Origin: an uncultured Methylobacter sp.
GTDB lineage: Bacteria > Pseudomonadota > Gammaproteobacteria > Methylococcales > Methylomonadaceae
Assembly (NCBI GenBank): GCA_903832775.1
Contig: CAILCX010000004.1
Span: 1-64,000, forward strand
Reading direction: 5' to 3'
Length of the DNA: 64,000 nucleotides
Position numbers and translations under genes: made by a program. This document shows, piece by piece, positions 3,886 through 14,316 of the stretch. Each line of letters begins with the position of its first letter. Position 1 is the first letter of the stretch. The notes under the pieces were generated by a model. That model saw only the letters and a program-made list of their open reading frames with translations. It did no database searches and had not been told where the DNA came from.

Positions 3886-4674
3886 TTACAAAATACTACA
3901 ACTAACACCTTCAAATACTGCGCAGGTTAATCTGCCAGAAGCGTAGGCACCTGTATCCAGTGCAATTCGATTATGCAGGATTTCTGGCTCTTCGGTAACG
4001 GAGTGGCCATGGACAATAATCTTTCCGTGAAACAAGTTGCTAGTTAAAAACTCTTCGCGTATCCATAACAGGTCTTCAGGTCGTTGACGCTGTAATTTAA
4101 CTTTAGGCCTGATACCCGCATGTACAAAATAATAGCCACCAATCTCATAATTAAGTTCCAGGTGCTGAAAAAAACTAACATGCGAAGCTGGTAATTTATC
4201 CGTAAGCTCATTACGTAAGCGCTCTAAATCTTTTGATGTGGGCACGCCACTTACGTTAATGCCATAACTGACCAGGGTTGATAAACCCCCAAATCTGAAC
4301 CAGTCATGAGCAATTGACACGTCTTTGCTCAATAAGAACTGCAATAATATCTGTTCATGATTGCCCAGTAAAAATACTTTCTTAAAGTCGGGGAAATTAT
4401 CTTCCAATAAATTATCAACAACCTGTTTGGAATGCATTCCTCTATCTATATAGTCTCCCAGATAAACCAGAGTTTTGCTGCCTTCATAAGCCGATGCGTC
4501 ATGATTGATTTTTTGCTGCAGCTCCTGCAATAAATCTAATCGACCATGAATATCTCCAACACAATATATTCTCTGATTGGCAGGCAAACCAACCGAGAGA
4601 GATTCTTTTTGTCTGGAACTAAAGATTTTTCTGAGTAAAGATTTCAAGAGCGAGGGAGAATTTTTTCCAGTCAT
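3886..4674 (-). CDS. PPP-family metallophosphatase (serine/threonine protein phosphatase)
   Basis: A 262-residue protein with the three PPP metal-binding motifs: GDIHG (40-44), GDYIDRG (73-79) and GNHE (104-107). HGHS follows near the C-terminus, then the LDTGA segment. This is the bacterial PrpA/diadenosine-tetraphosphatase-like type, a two-metal phosphoesterase of about normal length. It is the last gene of the exopolysaccharide group and overlaps the preceding gene by 56 bp in another frame. The ATG at 4674 lacks a Shine-Dalgarno; a TTG at 4770 would add 32 residues without family similarity. Its place beside a tyrosine autokinase suggests it controls phosphorylation of the export machinery, but PPP enzymes mostly act on Ser/Thr, so the substrate is unknown. 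Confidence 0.75.
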   Translation of the reverse strand: MTGKNSPSLLKSLLRKIFSSRQKESLSVGLPANQRIYCVGDIHGRLDLLQELQQKINHDASAYEGSKTLVYLGDYIDRGMHSKQVVDNLLEDNFPDFKKVFLLGNHEQILLQFLLSKDVSIAHDWFRFGGLSTLVSYGINVSGVPTSKDLERLRNELTDKLPASHVSFFQHLELNYEIGGYYFVHAGIRPKVKLQRQRPEDLLWIREEFLTSNLFHGKIIVHGHSVTEEPEILHNRIALDTGAYASGRLTCAVFEGVSCSIL

Positions 4675-5329
4675 CAGGAGAATAAGCAAATGCCTGTTCG
4701 GCAATAGGTTGAGCTTCAGCGTGTTGCGCAATAAATTTAACGAGCTGATCAGGTTGAAAAGTCCAGGCAACAGGGATTTGTTTTAGCCATAACTTCTGCA
4801 TTTCATCATTAAATTCATTATAGTATTGATAACTAAATAATAAACGCTGTATTACCAAATCAGGTTCGACACGTCCTGCATAAATAGACAAGCGCAGGGC
4901 ATCTATGATTTTTTCAGGGGGTTGCTTTAACAATTTATCTACTGCAGCCAACCGGAACCAGGCATAAGGATCGACGGGCGAGCGTTTTAATCCCTCAATA
5001 ATCGAGGTCTGCGCCTGATTAAGTAACTCCTGTTTTTTATCAGCCATGTTTGCAGGCGTTGCATTTATCTGTGCCAAATACAATATTGCCTGTGCTTGCC
5101 TATACTCCGGATTATCATACCAGGCCAGCGCATGGTTAAAATCATCAATACTTTTTTCATAAACCTGTATGGGCAGATTCTCTTGCGTTTGCTTTATCGC
5201 AACTTCCGGATACAGTGCATATAAACTGGCGACCAATCTGGGCACCGCTAAAATTAACAGCCCACAACAAACTATCATGCCCACTATGGCAATGATACGC
5301 TCACTTTCAGGTTGCTTGGCTTTTAACAT
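4619..5329 (-). CDS. Membrane-anchored TPR-like protein of the EPS locus, unknown function
   Basis: A 236-residue protein with one transmembrane helix near the N-terminus (about residues 10-32) and a periplasmic helical region (for example YRQAQAILYLAQ, then DPYAWFRLAAVDKLL) that looks TPR-like. No catalytic motif is visible. It starts 8 bases after the autokinase stop and its end overlaps the phosphatase gene, so it is co-transcribed with both. Such proteins in EPS loci may scaffold the kinase or polymerase, which is inference. The ATG at 5329 is used. Confidence 0.65.
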   Translation of the reverse strand: MLKAKQPESERIIAIVGMIVCCGLLILAVPRLVASLYALYPEVAIKQTQENLPIQVYEKSIDDFNHALAWYDNPEYRQAQAILYLAQINATPANMADKKQELLNQAQTSIIEGLKRSPVDPYAWFRLAAVDKLLKQPPEKIIDALRLSIYAGRVEPDLVIQRLLFSYQYYNEFNDEMQKLWLKQIPVAWTFQPDQLVKFIAQHAEAQPIAEQAFAYSPDDWKKFSLALEIFTQKNL

Positions 5330-5337
5330 GTATAGCG

Positions 5338-7587
5338 TTAGCTCGTATAATAATTGCTATAACGGGAATAGTGATAATAATAACCCGAATCGCCATAGCC
5401 ATAACGACCATATTGTTGCAAATTAACTTTCTGCAATACAATTCCTGCAACATTTGCATGCCCATCTTTGTTTAATAAATGCAATGCACTATGGACTACT
5501 TTTTTCGGTGTCGAATCCCAATTTAATACGAAAATAGTCTTGTCAACCAAGCCACTTAATATTCGGGTATCGGGTACCGCCATAATGGGCGCTGAATCCA
5601 GGATGACTAAATCAAAATGCTCGCGTAACCCGTCAATAATCGATTTCATTCTTTGCGAAGCAAACAGGTCGATCGGATTAACATAGGCCGATTTACCACG
5701 GGTTAAAATCTTCATACCCGTTTCTGCATCAGTAATCAGTACGTCATTGATTGACAGCTCATGATTCATCAATAAGTCGGTTAAACCCAAGGTACTTTCT
5801 TTCAGATTAAACATTTTACCAATGGTAGGTCGGCGTAAATCAGTATCAACCAAAACTACGCGCTGCCCGGCACTGGCTGAATGTCGGGAGATTAAGGAAG
5901 ACAGTGTCGATTTACCTTCGCCGGGCACCGCAGAGGTAACCAAGATCGACTTTACCTGTGCGTCCGGATTAAGCAGACTGAGGGAAATGCGCAGAGTGTT
6001 AACTGCCTCAGCCAAAGCAGAATGCGGCTTGGCCAGTAAATACTCATGTGGCTGACCCGTTATGCCGGCTATCTTGGGCACAATACCCAATGTCGACATA
6101 TTGAACAACTCCTGGATTTGTTCAGGAGAACGGACGCCGGGATTAAGCATTTCCCGTACAAACACCAGAAAAACCGCAAAAAATACCGCGCCTAGCACAC
6201 TGGCCATAAGCATCATGTTTTTCTTTGGAAATGACGCGCCCAAAGGAATTTCTGCAAATGAGATTACCCGCGCATCTGCCTGAGCAATACCTTGCGTTGA
6301 GGCAGTTTCTTTAAAGCGACCCAGGAAAGTTTCAAATAAGGCTTTGTTGGCGGTGGCTTCGCGCTCCAAAGCATGCAATTGAACTTCAGCCTGATTACTG
6401 CCACTGGTTTTGGATTCCATCTGCCTTAAACTACCTGACAAGGAACCTTCACGCGCACGGGCAACTTCCAAACTGTTTCGTAAACCGGCGGCAATTTTTT
6501 TAACTTCAGACCTTACTTTAGCTTGAATATCTTCCAGTTCGGCCTGCATTTGAATCATGCGTGGATGGCGTTGGCCAAATTCCACCAGCATTTCAGAATA
6601 CTTACGCTGCACTTCCGATTCTTGTTGTCTTAAACTTGAGATCAAAGGCGAATTCAGTACTTCAGCGACATTGTCAACATCACGACCGCTTCTGGCGATG
6701 GCTTCTACTTGTTGATACTTGGCTTCGGCTTCGGCGCGCTGGGCTCGGGTAATGATTAACTGGCTGTTGACTTCAGACATTTGTTGCTGAGAAAGTCCCA
6801 CTTCCTTGCTAACTTCCAACAACTCATGAGTTTTCCGGTATTGCTCTACGGCACGCTCTGAAACTTCAACTTTTTGTTTCAATTCACCTAACTGACCATT
6901 CAACCAGTCAGTCGCTTTTTTAGTTGCATCAAATTTGGCCTGTAACTGTCCAATGATGTATTTATCTGCAATCTCGTTAACTATTTTAGCGGCTAACTTT
7001 GGATCTTCGGCTTCATAGGCTACGGTAATAACTTGCGAACGCTTGACTTGTGAAACTGTCAGTTTTTTAAGAAAGGTATCGGTTAATCGGGTCGAATGCG
7101 CCTCTTCCTTTTCTTCCGGTGTCCGACTATCGATAGTAACCAACCCAATCGCTTCTTGCCACTCTTCAGGTATTATATTTTTAAGACTGTACTGTGCGAA
7201 AAAACCTGGCTTTTTAAGCTCCGGATTAAACTCTGCATATTGTTCTAAATGTAAGTTATCAATAACTTTTCTAGCCAACTCCCTTGATTTAAGTACTTCC
7301 ATTTCGCCAATAACGGCTGCATCACCGTTCAGATTACCGGTCATAACTTCTTCAATATCGACGACCTTGGCAGCATTAATGCCAATCAGCAATTGGGTAG
7401 TTGCAGTATAACGGGGTACTAACTGAAAAATAATCAATGTCGCCACAATGCTTAGCAAAAATATGACGCTCATTAACAATCGCCGGCTAAGCCACAGGGT
7501 ATGAAAAACGTCACTCAGTGACATATCAGTATTGAGTTCTTGCAGCGATTCGCTGGTCATTAAGGATTGTTCTTTGGAATCGTGCAC
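5338..7587 (-). CDS. Polysaccharide co-polymerase / tyrosine autokinase (Wzc/GumC-EpsB type)
   Basis: A 749-residue inner-membrane protein. TM1 is at about 36-56 and TM2 at 456-478, with a long periplasmic coiled-coil region between (about 225-430) typical of Wzz/GNVR domains. The cytoplasmic BY-kinase domain carries Walker A (SAVPGEGKST, 552-561), Walker A' (VVLVDTDLRR, 577-586) and Walker B (LVILDSAP, 660-667). The C-terminus has ten tyrosines within 726-747, the autophosphorylation cluster. Family members set polymer chain length and couple polymerisation to the outer-membrane exporter. The start is uncertain: GTG at 7587 has a weak GAGA, and ATG at 7560 has no clear site. It leads the group that includes the TPR-like and phosphatase genes. 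Confidence 0.93.
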   Translation of the reverse strand: MHDSKEQSLMTSESLQELNTDMSLSDVFHTLWLSRRLLMSVIFLLSIVATLIIFQLVPRYTATTQLLIGINAAKVVDIEEVMTGNLNGDAAVIGEMEVLKSRELARKVIDNLHLEQYAEFNPELKKPGFFAQYSLKNIIPEEWQEAIGLVTIDSRTPEEKEEAHSTRLTDTFLKKLTVSQVKRSQVITVAYEAEDPKLAAKIVNEIADKYIIGQLQAKFDATKKATDWLNGQLGELKQKVEVSERAVEQYRKTHELLEVSKEVGLSQQQMSEVNSQLIITRAQRAEAEAKYQQVEAIARSGRDVDNVAEVLNSPLISSLRQQESEVQRKYSEMLVEFGQRHPRMIQMQAELEDIQAKVRSEVKKIAAGLRNSLEVARAREGSLSGSLRQMESKTSGSNQAEVQLHALEREATANKALFETFLGRFKETASTQGIAQADARVISFAEIPLGASFPKKNMMLMASVLGAVFFAVFLVFVREMLNPGVRSPEQIQELFNMSTLGIVPKIAGITGQPHEYLLAKPHSALAEAVNTLRISLSLLNPDAQVKSILVTSAVPGEGKSTLSSLISRHSASAGQRVVLVDTDLRRPTIGKMFNLKESTLGLTDLLMNHELSINDVLITDAETGMKILTRGKSAYVNPIDLFASQRMKSIIDGLREHFDLVILDSAPIMAVPDTRILSGLVDKTIFVLNWDSTPKKVVHSALHLLNKDGHANVAGIVLQKVNLQQYGRYGYGDSGYYYHYSRYSNYYTS

Positions 7588-7790: not shown

Positions 7791-8369
7791 TTAGAAAAAG
7801 CGCTCTTTTACATGAATCACATCACCCGGCAAAACTTTTTCGTCCATCTTAAGGGTAAGTTCGCGTTTTTGTGGATCATTCATGCGAATGACTTCGACGT
7901 GATCTTCTTTAGCCCGATAGGTATAACCACCGGCTATGGCTACGGCATTAAGATAGGTCATGCCATCAACATAGGGATAAGACTTGGGTTGCTTAACCTC
8001 GCCCAAAATATAAAAGGGTCGATAATTAAGCACTTGTACGCTGACACGGGGATTAAGCAGATAGTCGGGCATTAACTTTTTGGTAATACCTTGTTCAACC
8101 TGTTTTGCCGTTAAATCTTTGGCATTGACATCACCAATTAAAGGCAAGGAAATCTGCCCGGAACCATTGATAGTGTAATCACCGGATAAATCTTTTTGAT
8201 TAAACACGGTAATCTTTAACAGGTCACCTGAACCCAGTCGATACTCTTGATTTGATGAAGTCGATTGAGTTTGAAGCTGCTCGCTAGATTCTTCTGCCCA
8301 TAAGACAGAAGAATATAAAACGCCACACAACATTAATGCCGAATAATTTTTAATAGTATGCTGCTTCAT
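7791..8369 (-). CDS. Polysaccharide export outer-membrane protein (Wza/GumB-like)
   Basis: A 192-residue secreted protein with a signal peptide (hydrophobic segment at about 8-25, probable cleavage after LWA). The Poly_export domain follows (YRLGSGDLLKITVFNQKDLS and IDGSGQISLPLIGD-like strand), then an SLBB domain (RPFYILGEVKQPKSYPYVDG). It is short compared with E. coli Wza and closer to the GumB/EpsA class; no lipobox is clear. It forms the periplasmic/outer-membrane part of the EPS channel. It lies 52 bp after the beta-barrel gene, probably in one transcript, and ends in the terminator at 7751-7779. Confidence 0.9.
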   Translation of the reverse strand: MKQHTIKNYSALMLCGVLYSSVLWAEESSEQLQTQSTSSNQEYRLGSGDLLKITVFNQKDLSGDYTINGSGQISLPLIGDVNAKDLTAKQVEQGITKKLMPDYLLNPRVSVQVLNYRPFYILGEVKQPKSYPYVDGMTYLNAVAIAGGYTYRAKEDHVEVIRMNDPQKRELTLKMDEKVLPGDVIHVKERFF

Positions 8370-8421: not shown

Positions 8422-9711
8422 TTAGAACTGACCTCTTAAATTGAGCATGACTTGATGCACTTCGTAGTTACTGAATGAATAATTCACGTCGCGACTTTGA
8501 TAATTGTAGGACAAATCGGTAGATAAATTCCTGTTCAAAAGGTATTTAGCGCCCAAATGACCGCCGTAAATCTTGTCATTACGGTTTATTGTACTCGGAG
8601 CAATAAAGCCTTGATAGTCGTTGTTGGTGAAATTACCGCCACCACTCAGAATCACATTACGCATTAACTCGTGATCAGCGCCTAAACTAACACCTGAAGC
8701 CAAAATACCGGCAACCCCTTCTTGAGTGGTTTCCAGAATATCATGACTAAATCTTCCATTAACGGTAGTTAACGCGGTTGGACGCCATTTCAAATTAACG
8801 AAGCCGTTGATTCCGGATATTTTCTTTAATCTTGGATCGGTATAATCACGTTGTAAGTAACCCACTGACATATCGCCAGTAATCAAGTCAGTCAAATCAA
8901 AGGCCAAGCCACCTAAGGCGTTGTAACCGGTTGAATTACGGTTATAGGCTGTGCCGGTACCGTTTGACTTTACCAAGCCATCATAATCTGCTTCTTTATA
9001 AACAAATTTCACATAAGCTTCATATTCCGGCTGAATTTCATAGCCCAAACGTATGGACGGTGCATATTCCCAACGATTACGAGTTGACATCAACAAAGGC
9101 GCATTATCCAGCGAAGTCAGCAGATCCTGGTAGTCATAGCGAGTAGCATCTGCGCCGCCCTTGACTGAAACACGGTTCAACTTTTGAGTATAGAAGCCAT
9201 CAAATACTTTGGTGTCATAAAAAGTTGGACCCTTGCCGGCAATCTGATCTGGGGAGCCGCGATTTTCATGTAGGCTATTGTAGGCAAAACCGCCATCTAA
9301 GTGACTGTTACGCATCACGTCCAATCGACCATCCAGGCGGGTTTTCAAATCTTGGTAATTGTTTTGGTCTGGCTGGGTAGCATACTGGGTCAAATCAGAG
9401 TCAAAATTTAAATTAAGCGCATGTCTATTCCAGTTTGAACGGACATCCACCCCCGGTCTGAAATGAGCAACATAGCTGTCGACTTCTTTTCTGGACGTCT
9501 TGTCGGTCATGTAAATATTGGAGTCATATTGATTGGTTATATCCAATTTAGGTAAAACGGTAAAAGAGCCGGCGTGTATACCTTGTTGGGCATAATCTGA
9601 CATTTGACGCTCACTAACAACCTCAGCGTCGTCTTTACTATCATAAGCCCAAGCGCTTCCGCAACTTGCCGCACTTAGCATTGATATGATTAACAGGTTT
9701 TTTTTGTTCAT
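8422..9711 (-). CDS. Outer-membrane beta-barrel protein of the EPS locus
   Basis: A 429-residue protein with a signal peptide (residues 1-22, ending SAWA). The rest alternates aromatic and polar residues, as in transmembrane beta strands, and ends in a C-terminal Phe (VMLNLRGQF), the usual BAM recognition signal. It resembles the putative beta-barrel porin group found next to GumB-like exporters in EPS loci. Its likely role is to form or assist the outer-membrane pore for the polymer, since the Wza-like protein here is small. It stands first in the minus-strand pair with the export protein. ATG at 9711. Confidence 0.8.
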   Translation of the reverse strand: MNKKNLLIISMLSAASCGSAWAYDSKDDAEVVSERQMSDYAQQGIHAGSFTVLPKLDITNQYDSNIYMTDKTSRKEVDSYVAHFRPGVDVRSNWNRHALNLNFDSDLTQYATQPDQNNYQDLKTRLDGRLDVMRNSHLDGGFAYNSLHENRGSPDQIAGKGPTFYDTKVFDGFYTQKLNRVSVKGGADATRYDYQDLLTSLDNAPLLMSTRNRWEYAPSIRLGYEIQPEYEAYVKFVYKEADYDGLVKSNGTGTAYNRNSTGYNALGGLAFDLTDLITGDMSVGYLQRDYTDPRLKKISGINGFVNLKWRPTALTTVNGRFSHDILETTQEGVAGILASGVSLGADHELMRNVILSGGGNFTNNDYQGFIAPSTINRNDKIYGGHLGAKYLLNRNLSTDLSYNYQSRDVNYSFSNYEVHQVMLNLRGQF

Positions 9712-9775: not shown

Positions 9776-10513
9776 TTAAGAGCAACTGGCGGCAACACAA
9801 TTATTGGTTGCAGTCTGAATATCGGGTACCAAGCTAGGATCAAGAGTCGTAACCTTGGCGACTATGGCATCTGCAAGAATCGCTAATAAAGCAGGATTAC
9901 TGCTACCCAACAAGTTCATGGCTGCCTTGGCAGCATCAACCTTACAGGTAGCATCTGCTCCACAACTATCGAATTTCTTCTCAAAATCAGTGACAATTAC
10001 GTTGTCTGTAAGAGTAATGTTACTGGTTGTAGATTCTGACTTGGAGTCCGGTGTTTGAACTACAGCGGGAGCAGAAAGCACTGAAGTAATAATCGCTTCT
10101 GTAATCGCCATCGCCGAGTCTGGATCAGCTTCAACTGCGGCTTGAGTAATGGCGCCTGCTTTGGAAGGAACGGCCTTAACTACCGCTGACGCAATAGTTG
10201 CTGCAGATGAAGGCTGAGCCTTTACAACTGCCTTTACAATGGCTGCCGCTTGCAATGGTGCGCCTTTGGCCGCGGCTGAAGCAATAACTGACGGCAATAA
10301 CTCAGGTATCTGAGCGTTAACCACGGCTAAAGCTATGCTTGCTGCCAAGCCCGGATTTGCTTTTGCAGCCGCTTGGATAAGCGCTGCCGCCTTTTGAGGA
10401 TTAGCTTTTATTGCATTGACCACATCAGATTCGACACTGGCAGCCACCGTAAACGACATCACTAATGCCATGATAATTAATAAAAACTTTGATTTATTAA
10501 TTGAAATATTCAT
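9776..10513 (-). CDS. Secreted Ala-rich repeat protein, function unknown
   Basis: A 245-residue protein with a signal peptide (hydrophobic 9-26, cleavage near AAS). Residues 31-152 form about eight degenerate units of 15-16 residues with the pattern A-V-V-K-A-x-P-x-x-A-A-A-I, predicted to be helical. A Thr/Ser-rich linker follows, then a C-terminal region with four Cys (SCGADATCK, NCVAASC) that could form two disulfides. No known enzyme motif is seen. It lies 64 bp upstream of the beta-barrel gene on the same strand, so it may be exported or surface-bound in the EPS matrix. ATG at 10513. Confidence 0.75.
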   Translation of the reverse strand: MNISINKSKFLLIIMALVMSFTVAASVESDVVNAIKANPQKAAALIQAAAKANPGLAASIALAVVNAQIPELLPSVIASAAAKGAPLQAAAIVKAVVKAQPSSAATIASAVVKAVPSKAGAITQAAVEADPDSAMAITEAIITSVLSAPAVVQTPDSKSESTTSNITLTDNVIVTDFEKKFDSCGADATCKVDAAKAAMNLLGSSNPALLAILADAIVAKVTTLDPSLVPDIQTATNNCVAASCS

Positions 10514-10889
10514 ATTTATATACCACTCATTTAATGTTACATTGATTTTTCACATCCAAAATAACTGAATGCATTGGCAACTCTTCCTGTACGTTTTTAA
10601 ATTATAGGTATAATTAGCCTCTTTGTCTAATTGGATGCTGTAATACCAACAAACAATGACAACTAAAATCACATACAAATCCGCTATATTTTAATATAAA
10701 CCCTTAATTTCATAATGTTAGCATATCACAGCCACTTTCCATCCCATTCTATTTGCTGTAAGGAAATCAGACATCAAACGCACCAATATAAAATCAAGAA
10801 CCCAGCTATTAATTCGCCCTCGTTTGTTTTGCTTGCTTTAGCAAAGTCGATAATACTTAACCGTTTATTGGGCTTCAATATTTACAGCT
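10514..10889. other. Divergent intergenic region in the EPS locus
   Basis: 376 bp between the start of the Ala-rich protein gene (minus) and the O-antigen-ligase-type gene (plus). It is AT-rich and should contain promoters for both directions. I see no strong hairpin or recognisable operator. A 60-codon plus-strand frame at 10715-10897 has no family resemblance and is not called. Confidence 0.5.
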
Positions 10890-12239
10890 ATGTTTAAAAT
10901 TTTTCTATACGCCATATTATTATCACCTATTCCCTTTGGCTGCAATCGACCATGGGCATGGAGTTTCTTTGCTGTACTATTGGCAGTAATAGGGCTAATC
11001 ATTTTTGCTACGACACTATGTAAGCGCTCTGAACTACGTCTAAGCCTAAAAGCTGTTAAATATCCGCTTTACCTAGCCTGCATTCCTGTTGTGTGGATTA
11101 TATTTCAACTTTCTAATCTCTCACCTAAAGACTGGACACATCCCTTCTGGCCACTAGCAGTAGAACAGTTACCTGGATTTTTTGAGGCTCACGTCAGCCT
11201 CATGCCACAAGAAACAGCTACCGCACTCATGAAGTTGCTTAGCTATTTTTTAGTATTTTTTCTCAGTCTGCAATTTAACCGTAACAGTGAAAATGCCGCA
11301 CACACCTTTAAATGCCTGGCTTATGCCGGCTTGATTTATGCCATCTATGGTTTGGTCATTTATTTAGGACATTATGAGACTTTATTGTGGTTTGTTACCT
11401 GGGCGCCTCAGAACGCAGTAACCAGCACTTTTGTTAACCGTAATTCCTATGCCACTTTTGCCGGTTTAACCTTGCTCTGCGGCTTGCCATTATTGTTTGA
11501 TAAAATTCAGTCTTGTTTTCAGTATGGCGTTAATAGCCATTATGGAAGACAATATTTTTTCGAACATGTTTTTATTCGTGGCTGGCTTCCCTTGCTGATC
11601 ATTATTATCATTGCAACAGCCTTATTTTTAAGCCAATCACGCGGTGGTTTTTCAAGCACCACTTTAGCTGTAACGATGTTTTTTATTATCTTACTTTTGA
11701 GTCGCCGAATAAAAAATAATGCCGCAATTATCACTTTCGTCATTATTATTGGCATTACCTCGCTGGGCGTACTTTGGCAAAGTGGCGATAAAATAATTGA
11801 TCGTCTTGATGCCACCTCACTCGATAACGAAGGCCGCTTTTTGGTTTATGATATTTTGTATAAAGCTAACGCTGAAAATCGTTGGCTTGGCGTCGGTTAT
11901 GGAAGCTTCTTCAAAAGTTTCAGGTTGTATCGTGATGAATCCATTATTGGTTATTTTGATATGGCACATAACACATATTTGGAGAATATTTTTGAATTAG
12001 GTTTACTGCAGGCTTCTGCCTTGTTTATCTCTATAGCCCTAGTAGCACTAATCTGCCTTCGTGGCATTTGGGTAAGACGCAAAAACTGGATTTATCCGGC
12101 CATTGGTTTTTCTGCAAGTCTTTTGGTTGGGGCTCATGCCTTGGTAGATTTTAGCCTGCAAATACCAGCTGTCGCTTATACTTACGCATTGATAATGGGG
12201 GCGGCAACGGCACAAGCCATACCCTCTCGAAAAAAATAG
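10890..12239 (+). CDS. O-antigen ligase / Wzy-type polymerase family membrane protein
   Basis: A 449-residue polytopic inner-membrane protein with about ten to twelve hydrophobic segments. It has the family landmarks FVNRNSYATFAGL (the N-R-N-x-Y motif before a TM), LSQSRGGF, and the large periplasmic loop ending GVGYGSFFKSF, then HNTYLENIFELGL. WaaL/Wzy-family proteins polymerise or transfer undecaprenyl-linked glycans. In an EPS locus with Wzc and Wza partners, the polymerase role is more likely than LPS ligation. It reads toward the WecA-like gene with 202 bp between them. ATG at 10890. Confidence 0.85.
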   Translation: MFKIFLYAILLSPIPFGCNRPWAWSFFAVLLAVIGLIIFATTLCKRSELRLSLKAVKYPLYLACIPVVWIIFQLSNLSPKDWTHPFWPLAVEQLPGFFEAHVSLMPQETATALMKLLSYFLVFFLSLQFNRNSENAAHTFKCLAYAGLIYAIYGLVIYLGHYETLLWFVTWAPQNAVTSTFVNRNSYATFAGLTLLCGLPLLFDKIQSCFQYGVNSHYGRQYFFEHVFIRGWLPLLIIIIIATALFLSQSRGGFSSTTLAVTMFFIILLLSRRIKNNAAIITFVIIIGITSLGVLWQSGDKIIDRLDATSLDNEGRFLVYDILYKANAENRWLGVGYGSFFKSFRLYRDESIIGYFDMAHNTYLENIFELGLLQASALFISIALVALICLRGIWVRRKNWIYPAIGFSASLLVGAHALVDFSLQIPAVAYTYALIMGAATAQAIPSRKK

Positions 12240-12441: not shown

Positions 12442-14316
12442 ATGCAAATAGACCATTTATTTAAATATCTTGCCGTTTTTGGCGTTTCCTATGTCATCGT
12501 CTTTATTTTTACACCGCTGTTCATAAAAATCACTCCTAAATTTGGCCTCATAGATTACCCTGACAGCCGATGCGTACATTCAAAACCGACCCCCTTAGCG
12601 GGTGGTGTAGTTGTTTTTCTGGGCTTTCATGTGGCTTGCTTTACCCTATATCAATATTTTTGGAAGGAATTTTCCGGTCAATTAAATTTTGATTGGTGGT
12701 ATGCTTTTTTTCTTGCCTCATCATTTTTGTTAGGTATAGGCCTAGTTGATGATCGTTTCAATACATCTCCTATCCTTAAATTAGTCGGCCAATCTTCCGC
12801 AGCTTTAATTCTTTATTTCTTATCAGATTATCAAGTTAACTTACTTAACCTGGATTTTGATTTTTTATGGGGAATGCTATTTGTACTTATCTGGAATCTG
12901 ACGATTATAAATGCCTTTAATTTAATTGATGGTTTAGATGGTTTATGCTCAGGCTTAGCCCTTATTTCTGGCATTGGACTTGCCACAATTTTTATTTTTC
13001 GTGGCTTCCCCGGAGACGCTTTAGTTTGCATAGCCTTGATAGGCAGCTGTTTAGGTTTTTTACGTTATAACTTTTTTCCGGCAAAAATATTTTTAGGCGA
13101 TACCGGTAGCATGTTTTTAGGCTTTGCAATTGCCAATATCAGCTTGCAAGCCGGCGGCAAAGGCTCAGTTTCTTTAATCATTGCCGCGCTCTTTTTTGTT
13201 GCCGGCGTGCCTGTTTTAGATACCTTACTGGCAATATGGCGCCGGTCTATACGCAAATTATTAGCCAAGAACAATTCCGATGCAACACCGGTAAAAATAA
13301 TGGGCGCAGATCGTGAGCACCTGCATCACCGCTTGCTTAATTCAGGGGCAACACATAAGCAGGTCGCTTATATTTTATATGCCGTCAACATTGTTATTAT
13401 TGCTTTAGGTATTATCTATTTTATTTATAAAGACCTTGCAATAGGTCTGTTTTTAATCGCACTTATCATCTCTATTTATTTATTATTCCGTTATATATTA
13501 AAGATAGAATTATGGGAAACAAGCCGACTTATTACAGAAGGCTTCTCCAACTCTAAATACACCGATTTTAACTTGGCATTATATCTATTATTTGATGTCG
13601 CCTGGATGAGTGTAATGGTTTGGCTTTCCGGCTTTCTTGTTTTAAATGGCGAGCAACCGTTTAGCTCACTGGGAAAATGGGCAAACAGCCTGCCACTATG
13701 GATTGTGCCCACTTTTATTTTGATGTTCGCATCTAATACTTATATTAAAATATGGCGTAACAGTTCATTTAAGGATTTTCTATTACTAAGCCTGGCTATT
13801 ATTATTGGGGCTTTATTCAGTTTGGCTATATTTTTTAGTTTAAATTCCAATCTGAATTTTCTAGCCACAATTAATCAAGCTTGTTTATTTATTTTATTTA
13901 CCCTATTGGGTATTTTAGGAATACGAATCCCTTTTCATTTGTCACGAGAATGGATAATAGGTAATCACAGCCCCATTATTAATGCTACTCCCAGATCTAA
14001 TATTTTATTGTATGGGTCGGGGCAAGTTGCAGGTTTATATTTGCGAGCCCATTATCTTAATCATGAAAATCATCATGAAAATGATTTTATAATTGGATTT
14101 ATTGATGACAATCCATCTATTAAAGGGAAGTATACTTATGGCTTACCTATTTTAGGTGGTGTAGCTGAACTTGAAAAAGTTGCGCAAGAAAAAAATATTA
14201 ACGGCATTATCTTAACCATACCTCTATCTGATGAGAGCCTTGGTTTATTAAAGAAGTTATGTCTTAAACTGAATATTACTTTATTCAAGTGGAAAACAAC
14301 GATAATTCAACTATAA
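12442..14316 (+). CDS. WecA/MraY-like phosphosugar transferase fused to a CapD/WbpM N-terminal region
   Basis: A 624-residue membrane protein with two parts. Residues 1 to about 355 are a polyprenyl-phosphate N-acetylhexosamine-1-phosphate transferase: VDDR (102-105), NLIDGLDGL (160-168), FLGDTGS (217-223) and HLHHRLL (293-299), the catalytic and Mg-binding loops of the family. Residues about 375-500 add four TMs, and 515 to about 600 form a Rossmann fold (LLYGSGQVAGLYLR, then FIDDNPSIKGK) like the N-terminal half of CapD/WbpM proteins. The catalytic epimerase/dehydratase domain of CapD is absent. The transferase would start lipid-linked repeat-unit synthesis; the added half may bind a nucleotide or regulate. 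No break is seen. ATG at 12442. Confidence 0.88.
   Translation: MQIDHLFKYLAVFGVSYVIVFIFTPLFIKITPKFGLIDYPDSRCVHSKPTPLAGGVVVFLGFHVACFTLYQYFWKEFSGQLNFDWWYAFFLASSFLLGIGLVDDRFNTSPILKLVGQSSAALILYFLSDYQVNLLNLDFDFLWGMLFVLIWNLTIINAFNLIDGLDGLCSGLALISGIGLATIFIFRGFPGDALVCIALIGSCLGFLRYNFFPAKIFLGDTGSMFLGFAIANISLQAGGKGSVSLIIAALFFVAGVPVLDTLLAIWRRSIRKLLAKNNSDATPVKIMGADREHLHHRLLNSGATHKQVAYILYAVNIVIIALGIIYFIYKDLAIGLFLIALIISIYLLFRYILKIELWETSRLITEGFSNSKYTDFNLALYLLFDVAWMSVMVWLSGFLVLNGEQPFSSLGKWANSLPLWIVPTFILMFASNTYIKIWRNSSFKDFLLLSLAIIIGALFSLAIFFSLNSNLNFLATINQACLFILFTLLGILGIRIPFHLSREWIIGNHSPIINATPRSNILLYGSGQVAGLYLRAHYLNHENHHENDFIIGFIDDNPSIKGKYTYGLPILGGVAELEKVAQEKNINGIILTIPLSDESLGLLKKLCLKLNITLFKWKTTIIQL

Follow-up and report, generated by a model that had tools for sequence, protein, structure and literature searches.

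In the stretch of DNA analysed here (64,000 nucleotides, called the window below), a gene for an alanine-rich and apparently secreted repeat protein stands directly before genes for the export of exopolysaccharide (EPS). This arrangement raises the question of whether such a protein is a working part of the exporter, a product that leaves through it, or a neighbour of another kind. The original prediction left the choice between a matrix, a surface and a channel-associated protein. It missed what we regard as the main point, namely that most relatives of this protein share a conserved C-terminal tail, [VA]SP[NS], while the bodies that carry the tail turn over.

The repeat protein and its gene

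The gene (9776-10513, minus strand) encodes 245 residues from an ATG start to a TAA stop according to the ORF list and its translation, the plus frame is rich in stops, and the protein is present in single copy in its own genome. The N-terminus (residues 1-25; 10439-10513, minus strand) is hydrophobic and, judged by eye, resembles a signal peptide without a lipobox cysteine. Eight helical repeat units, delimited by periodicity and by the AlphaFold2 model, cover residues 26-147 (10073-10438, minus strand) and start at residues 26, 41, 56, 73, 88, 103, 118 and 133; the unit at residue 56 has 17 residues and the rest have 15. Over residues 29-150, of which 32% are alanine, the self-identity at a lag of 15 residues was 0.35 and the mean BLOSUM62 score was 1.14. 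None of 5000 shuffles that preserved the composition reached either value at any lag from 5 to 34, so the 15-residue period is a true repeat and more than a reflection of alanine-rich composition; a lag of 30 stands out too. The eight 15-residue repeats that had been predicted are therefore real, with one unit of 17 residues.

The array is followed by a C-terminal helical part, placed by the alignment and the model (residues 153-238; 9800-10057, minus strand), which contains an SESTT stretch and Cys184/Cys190. The protein ends NNCVAASCS, which supplies a second cysteine pair, 239/244; in the alignment the last four residues, ASCS (residues 242-245; 9779-9790, minus strand), replace the [VA]SP[NS] of the relatives. 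Both cysteine pairs had been pointed out originally, but only one recurs: a pair like 184/190 was found in 9 of 12 aligned homologues (in the same columns in eight, outside them in L106), whereas the tail pair was confined to the window copy among 16 counted.

AlphaFold2, run on an alignment of 12 sequences, gave a mean pLDDT of 84.1 and a pTM of 0.69, with block means of 95-98 for residues 31-110, 87-93 for residues 111-140 and 75 for residues 141-150. Helices were predicted at residues 39-52, 54-66, 74-84, 86-99, 101-114, 116-129 and 131-147, with more within 160-242. This structure prediction, one of the checks that had been proposed, thus returned a series of short helices aligned with the repeat units, mostly at a pLDDT of at least 95.

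It had also been stated that the array matches no nameable family, and this agrees with the family searches. The window protein reached the cut-off of no Pfam or NCBIfam family, known non-surface families included, and the other scanned members likewise gave no family model above cut-off (the ten further proteins of one family scan include L139, which is a barrel and not a member). Named Pfam solenoids, TPR among them, were considered and rejected on score: TPR_14 gave 12.4 bits (cut-off 23.5), XPC-binding 19.2 (26.4) and INTS1_R4 13.7 (27). No relatives of the repeat protein were found by sequence among PDB chains or plasmid sequences, and Foldseek with the predicted model gave no match at E 0.001 or better. 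The fold search returned designed repeats and common helical arrangements. The best structural neighbours were designed helical repeats (8cwy_A with Z 13.7, rmsd 3.5 and 213 aligned residues; DHR4, 5cwb, with Z 11.7, rmsd 2.2 and 129 aligned residues), and as Z values of such size are common among helical repeats, relatedness is not claimed.

The export locus

The position beside EPS export genes that had been described was confirmed by domain assignment of the neighbours. An outer-membrane barrel of the BBP2_2 or VpsM-EpsL type (8422-9711, minus strand; PF10082, 2.1e-99) follows the repeat gene directly on the same strand after a gap of 64 bases. Next come a short OPX (Wza-like) protein of 192 residues (7791-8369, minus strand; Pfam and NCBIfam), which carries Poly_export and SLBB only, a Wzc-type polysaccharide co-polymerase (PCP) and tyrosine kinase (5338-7587, minus strand; Wzz/tyrosine kinase in Pfam, and NCBIfam) and a VpsP-like protein (4619-5329, minus strand; NF038257, E 4.4e-7, below cut-off). 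Wza_C gave no match to the OPX protein at E up to 1 in a Pfam scan of seven locus proteins. When a phosphatase-like ORF (3886-4770, minus strand) is taken to begin at its first TTG, it shares about 150 bases with the VpsP-like gene, and its true start probably lies further inside.

On the plus strand, away from these genes, lie a divergent Wzy/O-antigen-ligase-like protein (10890-12239; Pfam) and a WecA-type sugar-phosphate transferase with Glycos_transf_4 and CoA_binding_3 domains (12442-14316; Pfam). CoA_binding_3 falls on the C-terminal third of the latter, a seemingly unusual fusion.

By its orientation the repeat gene stands first in the export operon, and because a promoter-like site lies upstream of it, the operon probably starts here. 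The site (10601-10629, minus strand), 88 bases before the start codon, matches the sigma-70 consensus at 11 of 12 positions; it is a consensus match only, and the stretch holds 7 promoter-like sites on both strands against 2.9 in shuffles. A simple scan found no terminator between the repeat gene and the barrel gene as a possible means of raising the dose of the repeat protein.

With a short OPX protein (Poly_export, SLBB) beside a barrel and a PCP, the locus belongs to the composite OPX/beta-barrel export systems, of which VpsN/VpsM of Vibrio is an example (PMC9601211, PMC9603273). The window shares the short OPX protein, the barrel and Wzc with VpsN/VpsM and with WzaX/WzpX of Myxococcus. It would differ in adding a secreted subunit: an extra subunit of this sort is not named in the passages of PMC9601211 and PMC9603273 that matched our search.

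Homologues in Methylococcales

A single-sequence search found a homologue in 8 of 151 genomes, and a profile of eight sequences extended this to 19 of 311 genomes of the order Methylococcales, the window's own genome being included in both counts. In 17 of the 19 genomes, again with its own, the homologue lies inside a barrel/OPX locus. The survey of EPS loci that had been suggested as a check thus contradicts a consistent location elsewhere, and of the originally proposed roles it is the link to the exporter that these 17 genomes uphold. The homologue almost always immediately precedes the barrel, though in G117 it is separated from a BBP2_2 barrel by one Wzy-like gene.

The two exceptions are G082 (L017, 8578-9249) and G179 (L032, 1336-2184), where the relocated homologue adjoins a QueG-type gene. 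Since the same type of gene is also found in G186 beside a tailed protein (L104, 3980-4765) and a barrel that are still together, these copies seem to reflect rearrangement rather than separate origin. Both genomes also carry a subtilase-like S8 protein (L083, 9080-10336, in G179; L082, 1412-2677, in G082; PF00082 in the scan of L099, which is also G179). Its gene follows one for an ECF sigma factor (scanned in L082) and adjoins the barrel upstream in G179 but is four genes upstream of it in G082. The end of this protease, C-x4-C-S in L099, resembles the CVAASCS of the window, although two related cases are too small a basis for any conclusion.

The repeat protein is the fastest-changing of the three proteins compared. 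Identity to nine relatives, taken over the shorter length, was 31-39% for the repeat protein, 57-74% for the barrel and 66-80% for the OPX protein. The number of repeats varies up to about 14, which is a rough count from a regular-expression counter that misses diverged units and recovers 7 of the 8 in the window.

A conserved C-terminal tail

The ends of the first seven relatives were KKPVSPN, TLASPS, KKPASPN, NSASPN, QSVSPN, TLASPN and NTVSPN. A single-protein search of genome contigs gave 147 pattern hits, none of them confirmed, and a barrel profile was used as the anchor in place of the repeat protein. The profile located 36 places in 35 of 311 genomes; 35 places were examined, one contig-end fragment being left out, and 32 were counted, since contig ends truncate the other 3. 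At 24 of these 32 places the first gene upstream of the barrel on its strand encodes a protein ending in SP, SPN, SPS, SPA, SPQ or SPSS, and 19 of these 24 carry the strict [VA]SP[NS]. Some of the tailed proteins have no alanine repeats at all (97 residues in M. luteus, a Lys/Glu-rich protein of 79 residues, and one of 69 residues). The tail is therefore not a mere consequence of homology between bodies, because the count anchored on the barrel includes bodies of these other kinds.

The eight places with no SP-tail are the window, G179, G082, the second barrel of G181, G239, G043, G206 and G305 (a partial barrel). The window copy thus has the homologous body and the place upstream of the barrel that mark the tailed group, and departs from it at the exact C-terminus, where ASCS corresponds to [VA]SP[NS] with cysteine in place of proline.

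The specificity of the tail was examined in two ways. Among 784 distinct ORFs of at least 100 residues in loci L001-L209, which were chosen for these genes so that the rate is enriched, 21 end in strict [VA]SP[NS] and the other 763 do not. All 21 are the repeat or tailed protein; 20 of them lie in an EPS locus, and the remaining one is the copy that has moved in G082. Looser ends were seen on 13 ORFs, of which eight are the protein upstream of the barrel, four look like chance and one (L160, DDSSP) is uncertain. In three genomes, a DNA pattern for the motif followed by a TAA or TGA stop (TAG being left out) gave 63 hits, against 84 for a reversed control. Sorted by eye, 21 of the 63 have a true Ser codon, and three of these are the known target genes. 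Seventeen of the remaining 18 are open frames of at most 44 residues, short of the 50 required for an ORF, and the last is a 323-residue protein with a ferredoxin-like start and no visible signal. As only one non-target ORF bears the tail, it does not act as a general sorting tag in the three genomes searched.

The tail beyond the order

The barrel profile was also applied to named genomes, where 209 pattern hits gave 190 relatives, and the best 80 of these were examined. Among these 80, an ORF ending in SP[NS] was found at 5 of 55 alphaproteobacterial loci (L114, L122, L130, L136 and L166) and was absent at the other 50, several of which are cut by contig ends. The ends are TPETPVSPN or TPESPASPN in Parvibaculum and a Rhodobiaceae MAG, and DVISPS and DSVSPN in two alphaproteobacterial MAGs; the gene for the protein ending DSVSPN lies two genes upstream of its barrel and was found blind. 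Related proteins of Parvibaculum and Hyphomicrobiales have worn tails (PLSDN, TGSAS, SASGT). A helix array with a low-confidence tail was predicted for a Parvibaculum member; a profile comparison of methanotroph and Parvibaculum bodies gave a probability of 23%, too weak for us to claim that the bodies share an ancestor. At one of these EPS loci (L136, 3041-4693), a gene of the GMC-oxidoreductase type (PF05199) lies between the tailed protein and the barrel, and a GMC-oxidoreductase-like gene also precedes the barrel in L138.

In Caulobacter, Phenylobacterium and Brevundimonas, small exported-looking alanine-rich proteins with other ends occupy the same place. Those of Caulobacter (L145, L153, L157, L159, L161 and L170) end in approximately DPCAGVIAAYCGG, a kept tail with a cysteine pair that is perhaps an alternative tail type.

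At the level of the class, the barrel was found in 11 of 369 genomes, the window's own included, and none of the 10 other loci has an SP-like end within flanks of 1.5 kb, some of which are cut. At the level of the phylum it was found in 62 of 398 genomes; in flanks of the same size, some also cut, an SP-like end occurs at 2 of 29 places besides that of the window (SASPF and SGSPT). The end SASPF belongs to a protein with alanine-rich repeats in another class (G804, L181), and in the order of G804 (48 genomes) only L181 and L185 were found.

When presence of the tail was mapped on a tree of 117 barrels, 13 changes were needed against about 30 for shuffled labels, with 0 of 500 shuffles as low. 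This clustering is aided by near-copies, and the tree includes a label set by hand (L136), some barrels entered as two rows and the uncertain L160 (DDSSP).

A proposed tail-docked subunit and its alternatives

The reading we favour, to which we give slightly less than an even chance, is that the repeat protein serves the composite OPX/beta-barrel translocon as a dedicated, secreted accessory subunit and docks there by means of its tail. The protein would be exported by Sec into the periplasm, where the free C-terminal tail, at the end of a helix or a flexible linker, could dock from the periplasmic side on the BBP2_2 barrel or on the short OPX ring. This would bring the slender helical body to the mouth of the channel, where it may gate, guide or retain the outgoing polymer. 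Selection on the polymer or the surface, by phage or grazers, would account for the fast divergence and the changing number of repeats. In the window tail, the cysteine that stands in place of proline could pair with Cys239, as a local variant of the same tail. Docking is supported by the retention of the tail next to barrels in a large part of the order, and in some Alphaproteobacteria, on bodies that turn over. Against it, the window copy ends in ASCS, so the tail is not absolute; 8 of 32 places in the order, the window among them, are untailed, and in G082 and G179 a homologue lies away from the barrel. The absence of an SP[NS] end at 50 of 55 alphaproteobacterial loci, the other ends seen in Caulobacter, Phenylobacterium and Brevundimonas, and the counts of 0 of 10 in the class and 2 of 29 in the phylum also speak against it. 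It could also be recognised by something encoded elsewhere. A broader and more tentative proposal, for which the chances are closer to one in three, is that [VA]SP[NS]-COOH is an undescribed docking code: each genome would have one tailed Sec-exported subunit whose last four residues plug into the BBP2_2 barrel/OPX translocon, on a body that is swapped between a helical solenoid, short helices and a disordered Lys/Glu-rich chain, in Gammaproteobacteria and some Alphaproteobacteria.

The nearest competitor, which we consider unlikely though still deserving weight, is that the protein is cargo, which passes out through the export machine or together with it and remains in the EPS layer as a matrix protein or polymer anchor, its tail serving as a passport or for attachment to polymer as proposed for GfcA. 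It is alanine-rich, fast-evolving and variable in repeat number like surface proteins, and Larson et al. (PMC8592465) suggest that GfcA may be modified with O-antigen and directed to GfcD, to which it might carry polymer. However, its body lacks the Ser/Thr-rich, mucin-like make-up of GfcA, and one tailed exported protein per genome (in three tested), together with tight operon linkage, suits a machine part at least equally well. A translocon-docked role is likelier than a free matrix protein because the tail is conserved while the body turns over. The same turnover bears on a role in biogenesis, in which the protein would be needed in the periplasm as a chaperone or escort during assembly of the barrel or the OPX ring and stay outside the working channel. 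The position of the gene immediately ahead of the barrel and in its orientation, the predicted alpha-helical scaffold and a short tail that could bind an assembling partner would all fit. Chaperone bodies, however, are usually conserved, and here the body is the fastest part and is replaced by proteins of 69-79 residues of other make-up, which makes this role improbable.

Two further explanations seem to us very improbable. The protein could be a low-complexity hitchhiker that drifts in the operon with no special function, as its divergence, its alanine-rich composition and its absence from some loci might suggest; its kept position, an exact C-terminus found in two classes, the confident fold prediction and the cysteine pair in 9 of 12 homologues argue otherwise. 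Slightly less probable still, and disfavoured, is that the tail acts as a general sorting signal at the C-terminus, as PEP-CTERM does, with an exosortase-type enzyme as its reader. The barrel does score, below cut-off, against EpsL-type exosortase-associated families (74 bits against TIGR03014 EpsL, cut-off 275), and an exosortase occurs in 20 of 28 tested genomes, the window's own included. Yet none was found in the other 8, among them the tail-bearing G010, G034 and G181, and the three genomes searched for tails ending at TAA or TGA stops hold no other secreted-looking tailed protein. A PEP-CTERM end consists of the motif, a hydrophobic transmembrane helix and then basic residues, whereas the repeat protein and its relatives stop at their motif with neither hydrophobic stretch nor basic end, so membership in that group was rejected.

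Comparison with GfcA/YjbE and significance

GfcA is the nearest functional parallel, but judged from sequence and neighbouring genes the repeat protein is not of the GfcA/YjbE family. It shares with GfcA and YjbE of E. coli (the group 4 capsule operon gfcABCDE-etp-etk and the yjbEFGH operon) the features of a small, low-complexity protein, exported as far as its N-terminus indicates, that is encoded by the first gene before an outer-membrane barrel in an EPS operon. The YjbE/GfcA family model, which we take to be present in Pfam as YjbE, gave no match at E up to 1 in Pfam or NCBIfam. The gfc operon starts with the GfcA gene and encodes an outer-membrane barrel as well as homologues of Wza and Wzc (PMC8592465), and deletion of gfcA abolishes the capsule of EPEC and can be complemented (PMC3853201). 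The GfcA/YjbE group was termed uncharacterised in 2024 (PMC11494523), and the yjbE passages of PMC8117528 concern an insertion between yjbE and yjbF and have no bearing on the role of YjbE. GfcA, as described in PMC8592465, has 101 residues, is rich in threonine (30%) and has GfcB, GfcC and GfcD as partners. In contrast, the window protein has helical 15-residue repeats, relatives with the [VA]SP[NS] tail and a BBP2_2 barrel directly after it, 64 bases on, with no genes of GfcB or GfcC type in between. By analogy, it may work somewhat like GfcA/YjbE.

A literature search, with subscription journals mostly outside its coverage, returned nothing relevant on an alanine-rich or tailed exporter subunit. 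Small exported EPS accessory proteins are a known kind, and a tail carried on exchangeable bodies appears to be new. Subunits of this sort are missed by sequence searches because their bodies diverge and the scanned members match no family model above cut-off, and a four-residue tail on unrelated bodies offers a precise and cheap test as well as a marker for finding them. The finding touches the questions of how OPX/beta-barrel systems carry polymer across the outer membrane and what role small GfcA-like proteins play, and it bears on the formation of EPS in methanotrophs.
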